NCBI GenBank assembly: GCA_902768125.1 | Contig: CACXKA010000011.1 | Location: 1-56,580, forward strand | Direction: 5' to 3' | Source: an uncultured Bacteroidales bacterium | GTDB lineage: Bacteria > Bacteroidota > Bacteroidia > Bacteroidales > Bacteroidaceae | Length of the DNA stretch: 56,580 bases | Part shown: positions 409 to 24,408 of the stretch, one piece after another | Layout of the letters: each line of letters opens with the position of its first letter | Position numbering within the stretch: the first letter of the stretch is position 1 | Translations under genes and position numbers: made by a program | The notes under the pieces: generated by a model | Told to the model about the DNA's origin: nothing | Database searches by the model: none | What the model saw: the letters and a program-made list of their open reading frames with translations, nothing else

Positions 409-3400
409 ATGAAAAAAGGTAATTTTGGATTGTACAGCAAAGCCTATGAGCATGACGCTTGCGGTGTGGGTATGGTGGTCAACATTCATGGTGGCAAGAG
501 CCATGAGTTGGTGGACAATGCACTGAAGGTGTTGGAAAACATGGAGCATCGTGGAGCAGAGACGCGTGACAAGACAGGTGACGGCGCGGGCATCATGGTG
601 CAGATTCCTCATGAATTCATTCTTTTACAGGGTATCCCTGTGCCAGAGAAAGGAAAGTACGGCACGGGTCTGGTGTTCTTGCCTAAGCAGGAGAAGGAAC
701 AGCAGGGCATCCTGAGTGTGATGATTGAAGAGATTGAGCGTGAGGGTCTCACGCTGATGCACATGAGGGCGGTGCCAACGTGCCCAGAGGTGCTGGGTGT
801 GGGTGCCCGTGAGGTGGAACCTGACATCAAGCAGATTTTCGTCACAGGTGTGAGCGAGGATCAGGTGGAGACGTTTGACCGTATATTATATAAGGTACGC
901 AAGCGCATAGAGAACCGCGTGACGAACGAGGATTTCTATGTTTGTTCGTTGAGCAGCAAGAACATCATCTATAAGGGTATGTTGACGAGTGGACAGCTGA
1001 GACGCTATTTCCCCGACTTGTCAAGTCCCTATTTCACCAGTGGGTTGGCATTGGTTCACTCTCGATTCAGCACCAACACGTTCCCAACATGGAGTTTGGC
1101 GCAGCCTTTCCGTCTTTTGGCGCACAACGGCGAGATCAATACCATCCGTGGTAACCGCGGCTGGATGAAGGCGAGGGAGAGTGTGTTGAACAGTGAGGCT
1201 CTGGGCGACATCAAGGACATCCGTCCGATCGTGCAGGAGGGTATGAGTGACTCTGCCAGCCTCGACAACGTGTTTGAGTTCCTCACCATGAGCGGTCTGT
1301 CTTTGCCACAGGCAATGGCAATCCTCGTGCCTGAGAGCTTCAACGACAAGAACCCTATCAGCGAAGACCTGAAGGCGTTCTACGAGTATCATTCCATCCT
1401 GATGGAGCCTTGGGACGGTCCTGCGGCTCTGCTGTTCTCTGACGGACGTTATGCGGGTGGTATGCTCGACAGAAACGGATTGCGCCCCAGCCGTTACACG
1501 ATTACGAAGAACGGCATGATGGTCGTGGCAAGTGAAGTGGGTGTGATGGACTTCGAACCTAGTGATGTGGTGAGCAAGGGACGCTTGCAGCCTGGTAAGA
1601 TTCTGCTCATTGACACGCAGGAGGGCAAGATTTACTATGACGGAGAAATCAAGGAGCAGTTGGCGAAGGCTCATCCTTACCGCGAATGGCTGAACACCAA
1701 CCGCATCCAGCTGGAGAAGCTGAAGAGTGGTCGCAAGGTGGAGAATGGCGTGGAGAACTACGAACGCAAGCTCATCAACTTCGGTTTCGGACAGGAAGAT
1801 ATCGACAAGACGGTGGTGCCTATGGCTACAGCAGGTCAGGAACCTGTGGCAGCAATGGGCAACGACACGCCGCTGGCTGTCATCAGCGACCGTCCCCAGA
1901 TTTTCTTCAACTACTTCCGACAGCAGTTTGCGCAGGTGACCAACCCTGCCATTGACCCAATCCGTGAGGAATTGGTGATGAGTCTGACGGAGTATATCGG
2001 TGCTGTGGGCACCAATATCCTGACGCCTGATGCTTCCAACTGCAAGATGGTGCGTCTGCCACAACCTGTGCTGACGAACACGCAGTTGGATATTCTTTGC
2101 AATATCCGCTACAAGGGTTTCAAGACCAAGAAGCTTGCGATGCTCTTCGACATTGAGAAGGGTGCCAGCGGACTCCGACAGGCCATTGAGGACTTGTGCA
2201 AGGAGGCTGAGGCAAGTGTGGATGAGGGTGTGAACTACATCATCCTCTCTGATAGAGACATCGACGAGAAGCGTGCCGCCATCCCAAGCCTTTTGGCTGT
2301 GAGTGCAGTGCATCATTACCTCATCAGTGTGCAGAAGCGCGTACAGACGGCGCTGATTGTGGAGAGTGGTGAAATCCGTGAGGTGATGCATGCTGCCTTG
2401 CTGTTGGGTTATGGTGCCAGTGCCATCTGTCCTTATATGACGTTTGCCGTACTGGATGACCTCGTGAAGAAGCACAAGATTCAGGAGGATTACAACACGG
2501 CGGAGGCTCACTACATCAAGGCGGTGGACAAGGGTCTGAAGAAGATTATGTCGAAGATGGGTATCTCAACCATCCGTTCTTATCGTGGTGCGAAGATTTT
2601 CGAGAGCATCGGTTTGAGCGAAGACCTCCTGAGACGCTATTTCGGCACCGAGGTGAGCACCATTGGCGGTATCGGTCTGAAGGATATCGCAAGGGATGCC
2701 ATCCGTCTGCACGACGAGGCATTCAAACCTGCTGAAATCAATGAGATTCTGCCTAACAACGGACAGTTCTCTTATCGCAAGGACGGTATCCTCCACGCTT
2801 GGAACCCCGACACGATTGCCAACCTGCAGATTGCCACTCGTCTGGGCTCTTACAAGAAGTTTCAGGAGTGGGAGAAGATGGTGGACCAGAAGGAGAAGCC
2901 TATCTTCATCCGCGACTTCTTCGGTTGGAAGAGGGCTGCCAAGCCTACACCGATTGACGAGGTGGAATCAGTGGAGAGCATCGTGAAGCATTTCGTGACG
3001 GGTGCGATGAGTTTCGGTGCCCTGAGCATTGAGGCACACGAGGCATTGGCACTCGCGATGAACAAACTCGGCACTCGCAGCAACACGGGTGAGGGTGGTG
3101 AGGACAACGAACGTTACCACACAGAAGTGGACGGTGTGTCGCTCAGCAGCAAGACCAAGCAGATTGCCAGCGGTCGTTTCGGTGTCACTGCCGAATATCT
3201 GGTGAATGCTGAAGAAATACAAATCAAGGTGGCACAGGGAGCCAAGCCTGGTGAGGGCGGTCAGCTGCCTGGTTTCAAGGTGAACAAGATCATTGCCAAG
3301 ACGCGTAACGCCATTCCTGGCATCAGCCTGATTTCTCCTCCACCACATCATGATATCTACAGTATCGAGGATTTGGCACAGTTGATTTTCGACCTGAAGA

Positions 3401-12009: not shown

Positions 12010-12017
12010 TAACTTTG
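12010..12017 (+). promoter_or_regulatory. Promoter -7 box of the P-II/amtB operon
   Basis: TAACTTTG matches TAnnTTTG. A TTTG at 11982-11985 is 24 bases upstream, so the -33 element is imperfect. Transcription should begin near 12023 and would give a leader of about 300 bases before the P-II gene. Confidence 0.55.
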
Positions 12018-12046
12018 CATCGAAATCAAAAACAAATACGTTCATT

Positions 12047-12154
12047 ATGACACTTAACAGTAATTCAATCACAATGAATCTGAATAATAATGATTATCAG
12101 TTTCAGCAGCAGGGCCAGGAGCAGAATCAGGACTCTACATTGCTTGTGGTGTGA
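12047..12154 (+). CDS. Gln/Asn-rich 35-residue leader ORF
   Basis: A short ATG-to-TGA frame lies about 24 bases after the predicted transcription start and 169 bases before the P-II gene. It contains 7 glutamines, all CAG codons, bunched in the second half (QFQQQGQEQNQ), and 7 asparagines, mostly in the first half. That is 40 percent amide residues. The family is unknown to me. The position upstream of ammonium-sensing and ammonium-uptake genes suggests a leader peptide whose translation could report glutamine or asparagine supply, but this is inference. It could also be a chance frame. Confidence 0.45.
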   Translation: MTLNSNSITMNLNNNDYQFQQQGQEQNQDSTLLVV

Positions 12155-12224
12155 ATCTACCAGTCGGATGAACACTTTGAAATCGAGCACAAATACAAAA
12201 ACATACAACACAAACACACACAAT

Positions 12225-12270
12225 GAGGCTGGTTCATAAATAAATGGATCAGCCTCTCCATTTTTGGAGA
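12225..12270 (+). promoter_or_regulatory. Two overlapping leader hairpins before glnK
   Basis: Hairpin 1 pairs GAGGCTG (12225-12231) with CAGCCTC (12250-12256) and is followed within 4 bases by a run of five T, so it could act as a terminator. Hairpin 2 pairs TCTCCA (12255-12260) with TGGAGA (12265-12270). The two share bases 12255-12256, so they compete at that point. They lie between the Gln/Asn-rich ORF and the P-II gene. Confidence 0.5.
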
Positions 12271-12323
12271 ACAGCATTCAAAACAAAATAATTATCAACA
12301 CAAACTTCAAAACACATTAAGGT

Positions 12324-12671
12324 ATGAAAAAGATTGAAGCAATCATCCGTAAGACAAAGTTCGAGGATGTAAAAGACGCATTGTTGCACTCAGACATTGA
12401 CTGGTTTGAGTATCACAACGTGCATGGCATCGGTCAAAGTCGAGAGGAACGCATCTACCGTGGTGTACAGTACTCCACTGACGTGATTGAGCGTGTGGCA
12501 CTGACCATTGTGTGTCGCGACCAATTCGTGGATCCAACGGTGAAGGTCATCCTAAGGGTGGCACACACTGGCGAAATTGGTGACGGTCGCATCTTCGTGA
12601 GCGACATGATAGACACCTGGAGCATCCGTACGGGTGAGAATGGTGACACCGTATTGAGAGATAAGAAATAG
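12324..12671 (+). CDS. glnK: Nitrogen regulatory protein P-II
   Basis: This 115-residue P-II signal protein binds ATP/ADP and 2-oxoglutarate and typically plugs AmtB when nitrogen is plentiful. The T-loop carries both tyrosines of YRGVQY; Tyr50 corresponds to the uridylylated Tyr51 of enterobacterial P-II. The nucleotide-binding signature GEIGDGRIFV and the C-terminal IRTGE are present. The T-loop is one residue shorter than in E. coli GlnB. AmtB follows after 58 bases, the classic glnK-amtB pairing, so the name glnK is used by context. Confidence 0.9.
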   Translation: MKKIEAIIRKTKFEDVKDALLHSDIDWFEYHNVHGIGQSREERIYRGVQYSTDVIERVALTIVCRDQFVDPTVKVILRVAHTGEIGDGRIFVSDMIDTWSIRTGENGDTVLRDKK

Positions 12672-12729: not shown

Positions 12730-13986
12730 ATGAACGAAGTAGGAATTTCACTCGATACCGTATGGATGCTATTGGCAGCCATGTTAGTTTTCTGGATGCA
12801 ACCAGGATTTGCCTTGTGTGAGGCTGGTTTCACACGTAGTAAGAACTGTGCGAACATCTTGATGAAGAACTTTGTCGATTTCATGTTCGGCTCCCTGTTG
12901 TTCTTCTTCATCGGTTTTGGCATCATGTTCGGAAGCGACATTTTGGGTGGCTTCATCGGATTGCCCAACTGGGGCGACCTCTCTTTCTATGAGGGCGACC
13001 TGCCAGTGGAAGGCTTCCTGATTTTCGAAACAGTATTCTGTGCCACTTCTGCCACCATCGTCAGTGGTGCAATGGCTGAGCGCACAAAGTTCTCTATGTA
13101 CTTGGTATATAGCGCATTCATTTCTCTCATTATTTATCCTATCGAAGGTCACTGGACTTGGGGCGGCGGATGGCTTTGCAACGATGCTGCTGACTCTTTC
13201 ATGATGACAACCTTCGGTGATGTGTTCCACGACTTTGCTGGTTCTGCTATCGTACACTCTGTAGGTGGTGTGCTCGCATTCATTGGTGCCATCGCATTGG
13301 GTCCCCGTCTTGGCAAGTACAGCAAGGAAGGCAAGAGCCACGCTATTCCTGGTCACAACCTGACTTTGGCTTCTCTTGGCGTATTCATCCTTTGGCTCGG
13401 ATGGTTCGGTTTCAACCCTGGTAGTCAGCTGGCTGCTGCTGGTGAAGTGAACCGCATTGCGATCTCTCACGTGTTCCTGACCACTAACCTTGCTGCTGTA
13501 GCTGGTGGTGTGGCAACGATGTTCGTCACTTGGATGAGATATGGCAAACCTTCTCTCTCACTCACCCTCAACGGTATCTTGGCAGGTCTTGTAGGTATCA
13601 CAGCTGGTTGCGACCTCGTTTCTCCTGTTGGTGCTGTCATCATCGGTCTCGTTTGTGGTGTCGTGCTCGTGTTCGCCATTGAATTCATCGATCACAAACT
13701 GCACATCGACGATCCTGTGGGTGCTTCTTCAGTACACGGTGTTTGTGGTATCCTCGGTACCCTGATGACTGGTTTGCTCTCTACCAGCAACGGTGCCTTC
13801 TACGGAGGCGGTTGGGGTTTCTTCGGCGCTGAGTGCTTCGGCATCCTCGTCATCGACCTCTGGGCAGCCGCTTGCGGTCTCATCCTCTTCTTTGGCATCA
13901 AGAAACTGCACGGTCTTCGTGTGGATGCCCGCATCGAGGAAGAAGGTCTCGACATCTATGAGCACGGAGAAAGCTGCTACAACTAA
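12730..13986 (+). CDS. amtB: Ammonium transporter
   Basis: This 418-residue Amt/MEP/Rh family channel has about eleven hydrophobic membrane segments. The paired pore histidines can be seen in FAGSAIVHSVGG and in SSVHGVCGILG. The N-terminal WMLLAAMLVFWMQPGFALCEAG is typical of bacterial Amt. It sits in the inner membrane and is expected to be gated by the P-II protein encoded just upstream. An outer-membrane barrel gene follows after 54 bases. Confidence 0.96.
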   Translation: MNEVGISLDTVWMLLAAMLVFWMQPGFALCEAGFTRSKNCANILMKNFVDFMFGSLLFFFIGFGIMFGSDILGGFIGLPNWGDLSFYEGDLPVEGFLIFETVFCATSATIVSGAMAERTKFSMYLVYSAFISLIIYPIEGHWTWGGGWLCNDAADSFMMTTFGDVFHDFAGSAIVHSVGGVLAFIGAIALGPRLGKYSKEGKSHAIPGHNLTLASLGVFILWLGWFGFNPGSQLAAAGEVNRIAISHVFLTTNLAAVAGGVATMFVTWMRYGKPSLSLTLNGILAGLVGITAGCDLVSPVGAVIIGLVCGVVLVFAIEFIDHKLHIDDPVGASSVHGVCGILGTLMTGLLSTSNGAFYGGGWGFFGAECFGILVIDLWAAACGLILFFGIKKLHGLRVDARIEEEGLDIYEHGESCYN

Positions 13987-14040: not shown

Positions 14041-14766
14041 ATGAAAAAGGTAGAAGATTTGTTTAAGGGATTTGTTCTCACGGCATTGTTGCTCTCCGGA
14101 GCAACAGCCGCTGAGGCTCAAGACACAGTAGAAACAACCGTCGAAGCCGATGTGGTGAACCAATATATCTGGCGCGGTCTGGAATTGGGTAACACCGCCT
14201 TCCAACCCACATTGGGCATCGCCTACAAAGGTCTGTCGCTCACAGCTTGGGGAAGTGTAGGATTGACTGACCCAGCCGACACGAAGGAGTTTGACCTCAC
14301 CTTGGGTTACACCATCGGAGGATTCAACATTGGTATCTGCGATTACTGGTTCAACGCAGGTCTTGATCCAGAAAGCCGTTACTTCATGTACGAAGCTCAT
14401 CGCACCAACCACGTCTTTGAGGCAAATGTTGGCTACGACTTCGGAGTGGCAAGCATCCAATGGTACACCAACTTTGCTGGCAACGATGGTTTCAACAAGA
14501 AAGGCAAGCGAGCATATAGCTCCTACTTCGAAGTCAGCGCTCCGTTCAAACTCGCCACTTGCGACTGGACAGCTACAGCCGGTGCGGTTCCTTACTACAC
14601 GGACTTTTACGGAACAACTGGTTTCGCGGTGACCAACCTCGCACTTCGTGCAACGAAAGATATCAAGATCACTGACTCGTTCAGTATCCCGATCTTCGGA
14701 GAGGTGGTCGGCAATCCTTGCAGTCAGAAAGCATATCTGGTTTTTGGATTAACTTTGCGTCCTTAA
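14041..14766 (+). CDS. Outer-membrane beta-barrel protein linked to AmtB
   Basis: The 241-residue product has a signal peptide (hydrophobic stretch after MKKVEDLFKG, cleavage likely after AEA) and a body of alternating aromatic and polar strands, ending in a short FGLTLRP strand. The start of the mature part, YIWRGLELGNTAFQPTLG, resembles the TorF family of putative porins. The likely role is passage of ammonium or small nitrogen compounds through the outer membrane, because it is the third gene of the P-II/amtB unit and is followed by a strong terminator. Substrate is inferred from context only. Confidence 0.7.
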   Translation: MKKVEDLFKGFVLTALLLSGATAAEAQDTVETTVEADVVNQYIWRGLELGNTAFQPTLGIAYKGLSLTAWGSVGLTDPADTKEFDLTLGYTIGGFNIGICDYWFNAGLDPESRYFMYEAHRTNHVFEANVGYDFGVASIQWYTNFAGNDGFNKKGKRAYSSYFEVSAPFKLATCDWTATAGAVPYYTDFYGTTGFAVTNLALRATKDIKITDSFSIPIFGEVVGNPCSQKAYLVFGLTLRP

Positions 14767-14779
14767 TCCGAACCTGACG

Positions 14780-14818
14780 AAGGGGCTGTGTCTCAACAGG
14801 CACAGCCCCTTTCTTTTT
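14780..14818 (+). terminator. Rho-independent terminator of the amtB operon
   Basis: An 11-base perfect stem AAGGGGCTGTG / CACAGCCCCTT with a 10-base loop is followed by TCTTTTTG. It ends the P-II/amtB/porin unit. Confidence 0.9.
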
Positions 14819-14878
14819 GTCTTCATTCCTTCTCTTTTTATCCAAACTGCACTTTGATTTATCATAAATGGAACAGAA

Positions 14879-17582: not shown

Positions 17583-19286
17583 ATGTGCGGATTTGTAGGA
17601 ATACTCAAAACGAAAGGTGATGCTCGACAGAAACGTGAGCAGGCATTGAAGATGTCGGCAAAGATTCGGCATCGTGGACCTGATTGGAGTGGGGTATATA
17701 GCAACGACAAGGCGGTGCTGGCGCATGAGCGTCTGGCTATTGTTGACCCGCTGTCGGGTGGACAACCCTTGTATTCGTCTGACGGCAAGATTGTGCTGGC
17801 TGTGAATGGTGAAATTTACAACCATCAGGAGATTCGTCGCCGTTATGCAGGACAGTATGAGTTCCAGACGGGTTCTGACTGCGAGGTGATTCTGGCGCTC
17901 TATCAGGATAAGGGCGTTGATTTCCTCGACGAGCTGAACGGCATCTTCTCTTTTGTGCTCTACGACACAGAAACCGATGATTATCTGGTGGCACGCGACC
18001 CAATCGGTGTGATACCTTTATATATAGGTCACGATAAGGACGGAACGGTCTATGTGGCAAGTGAGTTGAAAGCCCTCGAAGGTCAGTGCGATGAATACAA
18101 GCCCTTCCCTCCAGGTCATTTCTGCACTAGCAAGCATGGTGGACAGTTGGAACGTTGGTATGAGCGTGACTGGATGCAGTATGACGGCATGAAGTGGTCA
18201 ACTTCTGACCATGATGAGGCGGTGCAGATGGTGAAAGACGGATTGATGGCATCGGTGAAGCGTCAGTTGATGAGTGATGTGCCTTATGGCGTGCTGTTGT
18301 CAGGCGGTTTGGACAGTTCAGTGGTGTCAGCCATCGCCAAGCTGTATGCAGCCAAGCGTATTGAGACCAATGATCAGCACGATGCTTGGTGGCCTCGTCT
18401 TCACTCGTTTGCTGTGGGTTTAAAGGGAGCGCCCGATTTGGAGAAAGCACGTGAGGTGGCTGAATTTATCGGCACTGTGCACCATGAAGTGAACTACACG
18501 ATTCAGGAGGGCTTGGATGCCATCCGTGATGTGATCTATCATATTGAGACTTACGATGTGACGACGGTTCGTGCTTCTACGCCGATGTATCTGTTGGCGA
18601 GAGTCATCCGTAGTATGGGTATCAAGATGGTGCTTTCTGGCGAAGGTGCTGACGAGATATTTGGAGGTTACCTCTACTTTCACAAGGCACCTGATGCACG
18701 GGCATTCCACGAGGAGACGGTTCGCAAACTGAGCAAGTTGCATTTCTACGATTGTCTGCGTGCCAACAAGTCGCTGATGGCGTGGGGTATTGAAGGTCGT
18801 GTGCCTTTCCTCGACAAAGAGTTCCTGGATGTGGCGATGCGTATCGACCCAGCTCTGAAAATGTGCGGTCCTCTTCCAAACTCTCCCAAAGGCGCCTTCG
18901 AGATTGAGAAGAAGGTGGTGCGTGAAGGATTTAGCGAGATGCTTCCAGCCAATGTGGCTTGGCGACAGAAAGAGCAGTTCAGCGATGGTGTGGGCTATTC
19001 ATGGATTGACACCCTCAAGAAGGTGACTTCTGAGGCTGTATCCGACGAGCAGATGGCACATGCAGCAGAACGATTCCCTATCAATCCGCCGCTCAACAAG
19101 GAGGAGTACTACTATCGCAGCATCTTTGAGGAGCACTTCCCAAGTGCCTCTGCAGCAAAGAGCGTGAACCAAGAGGCTTCTGTGGCTTGCTCTACAGCGA
19201 TTGCCCTCGAATGGGATGAAGCCTTCAAGAACATGAACGACCCCAGCGGACGTGCCGTCAAGGGTGTGCACGAACAGGCATATTAA
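17583..19286 (+). CDS. asnB: Glutamine-hydrolysing asparagine synthetase B
   Basis: This 567-residue enzyme amidates aspartate with glutamine-derived ammonia and ATP. The start is fixed by Cys2 (MCGFVGIL), the class II nucleophile after removal of Met. The ATP pyrophosphatase loop is LLSGGLDSSVVSA. The C-terminal synthetase domain retains the VLSGEGADEIFGGY motif. It has its own strong promoter and is followed by glnN with no visible promoter or terminator between, so cotranscription is likely. Confidence 0.96.
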   Translation: MCGFVGILKTKGDARQKREQALKMSAKIRHRGPDWSGVYSNDKAVLAHERLAIVDPLSGGQPLYSSDGKIVLAVNGEIYNHQEIRRRYAGQYEFQTGSDCEVILALYQDKGVDFLDELNGIFSFVLYDTETDDYLVARDPIGVIPLYIGHDKDGTVYVASELKALEGQCDEYKPFPPGHFCTSKHGGQLERWYERDWMQYDGMKWSTSDHDEAVQMVKDGLMASVKRQLMSDVPYGVLLSGGLDSSVVSAIAKLYAAKRIETNDQHDAWWPRLHSFAVGLKGAPDLEKAREVAEFIGTVHHEVNYTIQEGLDAIRDVIYHIETYDVTTVRASTPMYLLARVIRSMGIKMVLSGEGADEIFGGYLYFHKAPDARAFHEETVRKLSKLHFYDCLRANKSLMAWGIEGRVPFLDKEFLDVAMRIDPALKMCGPLPNSPKGAFEIEKKVVREGFSEMLPANVAWRQKEQFSDGVGYSWIDTLKKVTSEAVSDEQMAHAAERFPINPPLNKEEYYYRSIFEEHFPSASAAKSVNQEASVACSTAIALEWDEAFKNMNDPSGRAVKGVHEQAY

Positions 19287-24134: not shown

Positions 24135-24137
24135 GTG

Positions 24138-24211
24138 TGGACCAGCTTGGGCTTGAACCAAGGACCTCCAGATTATGAGTCTGTTGCTCTAACCAACTGA
24201 GCTACAAGTCC
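24138..24211 (-). tRNA. tRNA with CAU anticodon, probably elongator Met
   Basis: The minus strand folds as a 74-base cloverleaf starting GGACTTGTAGCTCAG, with anticodon loop CTCATAA (CAU) and T-arm CTTGG-TTCAAGC-CCAAG. The CCA end is not encoded. One acceptor pair and the top pair of the anticodon stem are mismatched. A lysidine-modified Ile tRNA shares this anticodon, but the acceptor and D-arm look more like elongator Met. Confidence 0.82.
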
Positions 24212-24271
24212 GATGGGGCGAAAAAATGACACCTTTGGAGTGTGATGTCCTTGGATGCCCTTTCCCGTGGG

Positions 24272-24342
24272 TTGTGCTACCAGGATTCGAACCTGGAATG
24301 ACAGAACCAAAACCTGTAGTGTTACCATTACACCATAGCACA
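24272..24342 (-). tRNA. tRNA-Gln (UUG)
   Basis: The minus strand forms a 71-base cloverleaf with acceptor TGTGCTA / TAGCACA, the weak U1-A72 pair and short D-arm typical of tRNA-Gln, anticodon loop TTTTGGT (UUG) and T-arm CCAGG-TTCGAAT-CCTGG. CCA is not encoded. It is upstream of and cotranscribed with the CAU tRNA gene. Confidence 0.93.
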
Positions 24343-24408
24343 ATCCTCATTGAAGCGTTCAACGTAGTGGTGTCTCCCTGAGGGAAGCCCCTTTGTCGAA
24401 TGCGGGTG

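Follow-up and report, generated by a model that had tools for sequence, protein, structure and literature searches.

A glutamine- and asparagine-rich leader ORF as a candidate ribosome-read attenuator ahead of P-II/amtB and other nitrogen-assimilation genes in Bacteroidales

The P-II/amtB operon in the window, the whole 56,580-nucleotide stretch of DNA from a Prevotella-like member of the Bacteroidales that was analysed, is preceded by a short leader ORF rich in glutamine and asparagine codons, and this leader most probably forms part of a transcription attenuator that is read by the ribosome and acts in nitrogen assimilation. Judged from sequence, the candidate is well supported and has several nitrogen targets. 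The sequence-only reading had suggested that glutamine or asparagine supply sets expression of the ammonium operon through ribosome stalling, and the make-up of the leader, the pattern of changes in the hairpins and the nitrogen functions of the targets all speak for that suggestion.

The leader ORF, with its stretches of CAG (Gln) and AAT (Asn) codons, would be translated in the wake of RNA polymerase. A shortage of glutamine and/or asparagine would lower the level of charged tRNA, and the ribosome, stalling on these codons, would leave a downstream stem-loop uncovered, the ACCAGUC loop of which could then pair with the emerging GGCUGGU arm of the terminator. With the seed and arm so paired, no terminator would form and P-II/amtB would be transcribed. 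When glutamine or asparagine is plentiful, the ribosome would reach the stop codon, open the stem-loop and cover the seed, and the terminator would then fold and presumably end transcription in vivo. In relatives, the same device would operate ahead of gltB and asnB and of a CP-ATP-grasp gene, and the predicted sense of the response is that low glutamine/asparagine turns P-II/amtB, gltB and asnB on.

Leader ORF, promoter and RNA elements in the window

The elements and genes concerned are these:

12010-12017, + strand: -7 promoter element TAACTTTG, 29 nt upstream of the ATG
12047-12154, + strand: leader ORF of 35 codons, with 7 Gln (all CAG) and 7 Asn (6 AAT, 1 AAC)
12141-12146 (TGCTTG) and 12184-12189 (CGAGCA), + strand: possible outer stem P0, suggestive only
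12149-12175, + strand: stem-loop P1 (H1), GUGU-GA-AUCU [ACCAGUC] GGAU-GA-ACAC; -5.7 kcal/mol
12152-12154, + strand: stop codon UGA of the leader, within the 5' strand of P1
12159-12165, + strand: putative antiterminator seed ACCAGUC, the 7-nt loop of P1, complementary to GGCUGGU at 12227-12233
12225-12256, + strand: terminator-like hairpin, 5' arm 12225-12237, 3' arm 12244-12256; -19.4 kcal/mol alone
12261-12265, + strand: U-run of the terminator, starting four bases past the stem
12324-12671, + strand: P-II nitrogen regulatory protein (PF00543)
12730-13986, + strand: amtB, ammonium transporter (PF00909)
14041-14766, + strand: unclassified gene next to amtB, perhaps encoding an outer-membrane protein; no Pfam match

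The leader ORF, with the translation MTLNSNSITMNLNNNDYQFQQQGQEQNQDSTLLVV, has a Gln plus Asn share of 40% versus 7.6% in the ten neighbouring ORFs taken as genes, and the binomial probability of 14 or more such residues in 35 at that background is 1.1e-7, uncorrected for the number of ORFs read. A recount gave the same seven CAG and seven Asn codons in 35 as had been reported before. The promoter element TAACTTTG is of the Bacteroidetes -7 type TAnnTTTG.

The last CAG codon is at 12128-12130 and the stop codon at 12152-12154. A ribosome has a footprint of roughly 12-15 nt, and the geometry of the stop and last CAG fits this value. Constrained folding, in which only nested pairs are allowed, agrees in part: a mask for the terminating ribosome abolishes P1, a mask for a ribosome stalled on the last CAG keeps P1, and under the stalled mask the 5' arm of the terminator forms a small hairpin of its own. 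The antiterminator was never predicted by this folding, which is limited to nested pairs and has pseudoknots outside its model. The seed duplex (-13.0 kcal/mol) is weaker than the terminator (-19.4 kcal/mol), and antitermination would therefore have to be kinetic, occurring before the 3' arm of the terminator is made.

The U-run is nearer to the terminator stem in several relatives than in the window, and a small hairpin, CTCC-ATTTTT-GGAG, adjoins the last bases of the 12225-12256 hairpin. Two hairpins that share bases had been described from the sequence, one of them with a T-run. The latter is the hairpin at 12225-12256; the second is presumably, as a guess, the adjoining CTCC-ATTTTT-GGAG. 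That layout consisted of hairpins only and had not named the seed at the end of the ORF, which is the likely antiterminator.

Recurrence, target genes and codon usage

In g1, the genus of the window, 45 genomes yielded 41 P-II places in 39 genomes, and a Gln/Asn-rich leader is present at 17 of the 41 (16 genomes), mostly with differing sequences, as exemplified by MSSISEYFTAVLNQNNQQQNQQQNLNNQQNQAQQIACCGILPAG. Leaders also precede P-II operons at five loci in g29, a second genus of the family, and seven more distant Bacteroidales P-II loci carry one. A named genome collection, from which 80 of 563 P-II loci were kept (two, L035 and L052, with short upstream regions), has the leader at five loci, L026, L028, L031, L032 and L033. 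An order-wide sample of 69 stretches besides the window, covering part of the places listed and including three that meet contig ends (L261, L269 and L271), has it at two, L231 and L232. Taken together, these sequences indicate that the leader is a real arrangement, and a minority one, in several Bacteroidales groups. Composition in close relatives, on which the sequence-only reading had staked its case, is kept, in that the leaders remain rich in Gln and Asn though the peptide sequence drifts.

Q/N-containing ORFs in L223, L267 and L273 were judged spurious. L259 is ambiguous, with a Q/N-containing ORF, a weak hairpin and no seed; the ORF, MRRINNILQNRKQQPERAVNCVWSHNNDR (1106-1195, reverse strand of the locus), lies ahead of an OMP-P-II operon together with hairpins of the form CAGCCC-GAAA-GGGCTG, and is perhaps an attenuator of another design.

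Among the loci read, the leader stands ahead of the operon's first gene; the P-II operons are ordered either as P-II-amtB or, in G031, L032, L231, L232 and three g29 loci, as OMP-P-II-amtB. In such other genomes a similar-looking OMP-like gene opens the operon behind the leader, and the product of 14041-14766 in the window is perhaps of this outer-membrane type and its gene perhaps akin to them, as judged by eye. One g1 genome (G025) has two P-II/amtB operons (C45, read as L151/L193, and C27, read as L091), each with its own Gln/Asn leader and the two leaders differing in sequence.

Some leaderless P-II loci have a different feature, a perfect palindrome, CATTGCAATG, positioned just 3' of the promoter TTTG. 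It is present about 46-60 nt before P-II in L100, L101, L105, L107-L110 and L115-L117, and also occurs in L017, L018, L022, L029 and L222. In g1 it occurs at 10 of 24 leaderless versus 0 of 17 leader-bearing loci (Fisher P 0.002, uncorrected for kinship), and it looks like a candidate operator that takes the place of the attenuator.

Searches with covariance models extended the list of target genes. R1, a model of the 3' part of the element, gave matches at E <= 1e-5 in 26 of 399 genomes of the family, 15 in g1 and 6 in g29, where the element was located ahead of P-II operons (5 genomes) and of gltB; those in the other five (G082, G090, G105, G108 and G359) were judged to be plain terminators. 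R2, a model built without six distant elements, gave matches at E <= 1e-4 in 21 of 393 genomes of the order; at 24 loci of 20 of these genomes, the window aside, none looked like these leaders, and Q/N-containing ORFs in L198, L214 and L216 were judged spurious. Terminators of the AGGCTG..CAGCCT type are frequent after unrelated genes in these genomes, for example at 14771-14820 in the window, and being so common they give rise to weak false matches of the models.

The leader precedes gltB in five genomes (G072, G189, G266, G278 and G215), of which G215 was added by running R2 on 25 chosen genomes, a search in which the match in G278 also proved to be gltB. The gltB of L195 was identified by PF00310 and by a glutamate synthase large subunit score of 463.5 bits, which is below the full-length cut-off because the protein is partial at the end of the locus; the other four were assigned by eye from a shared start sequence. 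In L033, a second leader precedes a gene that matches asparagine synthase B over its first 209 residues, with 271.5 bits, again below the full-length cut-off because the protein is partial at the locus end. A further leader, from the R1 search, lies before a CP-ATP-grasp gene (PF14403) in G011. PF14403 is present in 12 of the 45 g1 genomes and its upstream region is readable in ten (L170-L179), the stretch being short in G021 and the gene split over contigs in G023; among these the leader is found only in G011. The contig of G029 ends within a near-identical leader, perhaps a second CP-ATP-grasp leader, PF14403 itself not having been found there. By eye, no such leader is present in the 231 bases that precede the asnB of the window (17583-19286).

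These targets make sense as one nitrogen-assimilation set: asnB and gltB supply the amino acids that would be sensed, and P-II/amtB is upstream in the pathway. Expression changes of the predicted sense are reported for Prevotella ruminicola 23 in section 7 of PMC5552732, where limiting ammonium raised amtB 69-fold and glnK 46-fold, gltB/D 27-33-fold and asnB 38-fold. The same paper contradicts itself, as a passage in section 13 and the legend to Figure 4 put the highest amtB expression under non-limiting ammonium.

Codons were counted in 32 leaders, near-identical ones (G006, G025:C27 and L183) and the gltB leaders of L317 and L319 being excluded. Their Q+N fraction is 17-50%, and a slightly looser -7 pattern is present ahead of 29 of the 32, with a spacing of 27-31 nt in 27 of them and of 10 and 18 nt in L026 and L028, respectively; this pattern was not found in L032, L231 or L232. 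Gln is encoded by CAG 177 times and CAA 17 times (of 194), compared with 90/55 in the ten window ORFs, and Asn by AAT 195 times and AAC 59 times (of 254), compared with 41/87, giving Fisher P values of 9e-11 and 3e-17 that are overstated, the rows being related. The odds ratios against background are 6.4 for CAG and 7.0 for AAT, which is the rarer Asn codon among the background ORFs. Biased choice of synonymous codons is known for attenuators (PMC1183508, in part).

The same attenuator might respond to asparagine, or to both tRNAs read together, with glutamine secondary, and we regard this as a possible reading, short of the favoured one. Every leader counted outside g1 has more Asn than Gln codons, with 8 Asn and 1-2 Gln in three gltB leaders and 11-12 Asn and 3-5 Gln in four g29 P-II leaders; AAT lies slightly further from background than CAG (7.0 vs 6.4), and one leader precedes asnB. 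In g1, however, the 15 P-II leaders counted are divided, seven with Gln ahead, seven with Asn ahead and one tie, 6 Gln codons stand against 2 Asn in the CP-ATP-grasp leader, and the two signals are in any case linked because AsnB makes asparagine from glutamine. The assembly to which the window belongs (89.66% complete) encodes a GlnRS (628.6 bits, over the cut-off) and GatB_N had no match in it, so that charging of Gln-tRNA should follow free glutamine. A tRNA-Met gene stands beside a tRNA-Gln gene (anticodon TTG) at 24137-24343 of the window, on the - strand.

More broadly, we see about even chances that parts of the Bacteroidales have a nitrogen regulon run by the ribosome, in which a modular Gln/Asn attenuator with a pseudoknot-forming loop seed has spread to P-II/amtB, gltB, asnB and CP-ATP-grasp genes, the Gln:Asn ratio tunes the response gene by gene, and sister lineages use the promoter-proximal CATTGCAATG instead.

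Conservation of the hairpins and of seed pairing

Alignment A2 has 25 of the 28 assembled rows, L128, L183 and L185 being identical in the columns concerned to rows that were kept, and A3 has 18 rows, six distant rows and four near-duplicates having been left out; L231, L232, L317 and L319 are in no alignment. A CCRGYC seed is present at the leader end in the 28 assembled rows, mostly within the P1 loop. Over the 25 rows, seed and arm are paired in 97.1% of cells (slid controls <=50.9%) and the terminator in 98.2%, percentages that lean towards structure because seeds were positioned from a pattern or by eye and, for the 3' arm of the terminator, the sequence within 40 nt with the best complementarity was taken. 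There is little variation in the seed-arm pairing, four of the seven pairs never varying, and the terminator has both-sided changes in 6 of 11 pairs (slid versions <=2). For P1, 68.4% of cells are paired (slid <=47.6%), a value that is low because distant rows are off-register or weak and because of the GA/GA internal loop; its covariation score is 0.227 (slid <=0.174), and its two-sided changes, in 9 pairs and 16 cells compared with 8 pairs and 18 cells in slid versions, are no proof alone. Covariation of the hairpins had been raised as a point on which the initial interpretation could fail, and the terminator and parts of P1 show compensatory changes. RNAalifold applied to A3 predicted seven P1 pairs unprompted, and likewise the terminator.

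P1 is kept in most near relatives, and seed pairing and the terminator in nearly all 25 rows. Three gltB rows have CC/GG, in the same register, in place of the GA/GA internal loop. L026 and L028 have a weak P1, that of L127 has its outer half unpaired as aligned, and in L031-L033 and L135 the stem is found in other registers, as with UACCU..AGGUA in L031. Four gltB cases have an A-C mismatch in the terminator where the seed pairs with that A; the fifth (L319) has A-U. The outer stem P0 looks good by eye, yet it was not accepted as an established element, as the g1 rows are not above shuffles (p 0.185 in the window and 0.07-0.83 in the others); p is 0.003-0.043 in eight g29 P-II and gltB rows.

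Dinucleotide shuffles were applied to seven elements found by leader make-up, L135 being excluded as it was found by R1. Seed complementarity is jointly above shuffles (Fisher 9e-5 for seven loci), also with one locus per related group (0.009 at worst, 0.0005 at best); the alignment rows being related, shuffles overstate significance. For single loci, the seed helix alone is not above shuffles in L026 (p 0.44-0.61), is marginal in L032, L231 and L232 (p 0.11-0.15) and has p 0.07 in the asnB copy of L033, where a better-scoring helix is another one; in the first shuffle test, the best helix in L026 and L033 was not the seed itself. R2, run on 58 loci, had its best matches in the asnB copy (E 5e-6) and P-II copy (0.0037) of L033 and in L031 (0.0068), ranked L032 ninth (0.17) and L026 twelfth (0.43), and missed L028.

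An arrangement closer to that of trp attenuators deserves consideration, in which P1 would serve for pausing or sequestration, folding when no ribosome is near, and a stalled ribosome breaks P1 so that the seed pairs without any loop-arm pseudoknot. An extended pairing of UGAA-UCUA-CCAGUC with GGCUGG-UUCA does exist in the window (duplex -13.0 kcal/mol), and 84.1% of the cells of its outer helix are paired over 13 g1 P-II rows and the CP-ATP-grasp row. As the main model, this extended antiterminator was set aside, fitting most of these 14 rows but not those of gltB, in which the UGAA part is lost (UCCAUC) while the seed is kept; moreover, in rows with a recognisable P1 the seed is found within the P1 loop. 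We therefore consider the arrangement rather unlikely and favour pairing of the arm with the loop of an intact P1.

The strong conservation of P1 with its GA/GA internal loop within g1 could also be that of a riboswitch or protein-binding site, for glutamine or P-II for example, with the ORF incidental or serving only to couple translation. This is improbable, given that P1 falls within the ORF or at its end, that leader make-up and codon bias are kept where the P1 sequence differs, and that neither the window nor the eight element loci have a riboswitch match at the Rfam gathering score. A functional small protein rich in Q/N is a very improbable role for the ORF: with a plausible promoter and start it may be translated, but the peptide is conserved in make-up only, had no match in Pfam, and has a C-terminal part that tracks the RNA motif in varying frames (LLVV*, GILPAG*, STSRMNI*). 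Least credible of all is a chance placing of a low-complexity ORF beside an ordinary terminator; AGGCTG-type terminators are common here and most P-II loci read have no leader, but recurrence before four kinds of nitrogen gene and the structure statistics argue against it. The attenuator remains the reading that we prefer.

Relation to known regulatory systems

No Rfam family reaches its threshold in this region of the window, the best weak match being an unrelated sRNA with 22.1 bits against a cut-off of 56, and neither the glutamine riboswitch models (glnA and Downstream-peptide) nor the T-box model had a match in the window or at the eight element loci. We know of no described leader for Gln or Asn, and none was among the papers listed by a literature search that had most subscription journals outside its reach. 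To our knowledge, nitrogen sensing in the dominant gut and rumen Bacteroidales is poorly known. If the reading is correct, a leader that responds to charging of Gln and Asn tRNAs would provide a direct and testable answer to how ammonium uptake and assimilation are sensed, and would extend ribosome-mediated attenuation to two further amino acids. An element common to several nitrogen operons would also make the regulon findable by sequence.

The glutamine riboswitches of cyanobacteria, glnA and Downstream-peptide RNAs, likewise place nitrogen genes under glutamine-responsive RNA control, whereas here the sensor would be the ribosome. The Bacteroid-trp leader motif of Bacteroidetes has Trp codons, trp genes and a leader peptide plus terminator; it shares the phylum and the combination of leader peptide and terminator with the element described here, differs in codons and genes, and had no Rfam match above the gathering score here. 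Long 5' UTRs of B. thetaiotaomicron contain sORFs reminiscent of leader peptides (PMC7366714), a paper in whose main text amtB and glutamine are absent. The LEU element is located upstream of leuA in Actinobacteria, for which a conserved pseudoknot is reported along with leader peptides in the regulatory regions of amino-acid genes (PMC1262725); glutamine, asparagine, amtB, gltB and ammonium are absent from the main text of that paper. The LEU element resembles the present one in its leader peptide; in the present element loop and arm are complementary and might form a pseudoknot. The amino acid and phylum are different.

The classical attenuators are those of the trp, his, thr and leu operons of enterobacteria. 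The window has the sequence features of an attenuator, namely a codon-rich leader near the promoter, a terminator before the first gene and mutually exclusive seed-arm complementarity. As in the classical cases (for theory, see PMC1183508, in part), a leader ORF holds regulatory codons with strong codon bias, a terminator precedes the first gene and its 5' arm has an alternative pairing. Unlike them, the leader described here would be read for Gln and/or Asn, its seed is the loop of a stem located where the ORF ends, and the predicted targets are ammonium sensing and uptake and nitrogen assimilation rather than one biosynthetic pathway.
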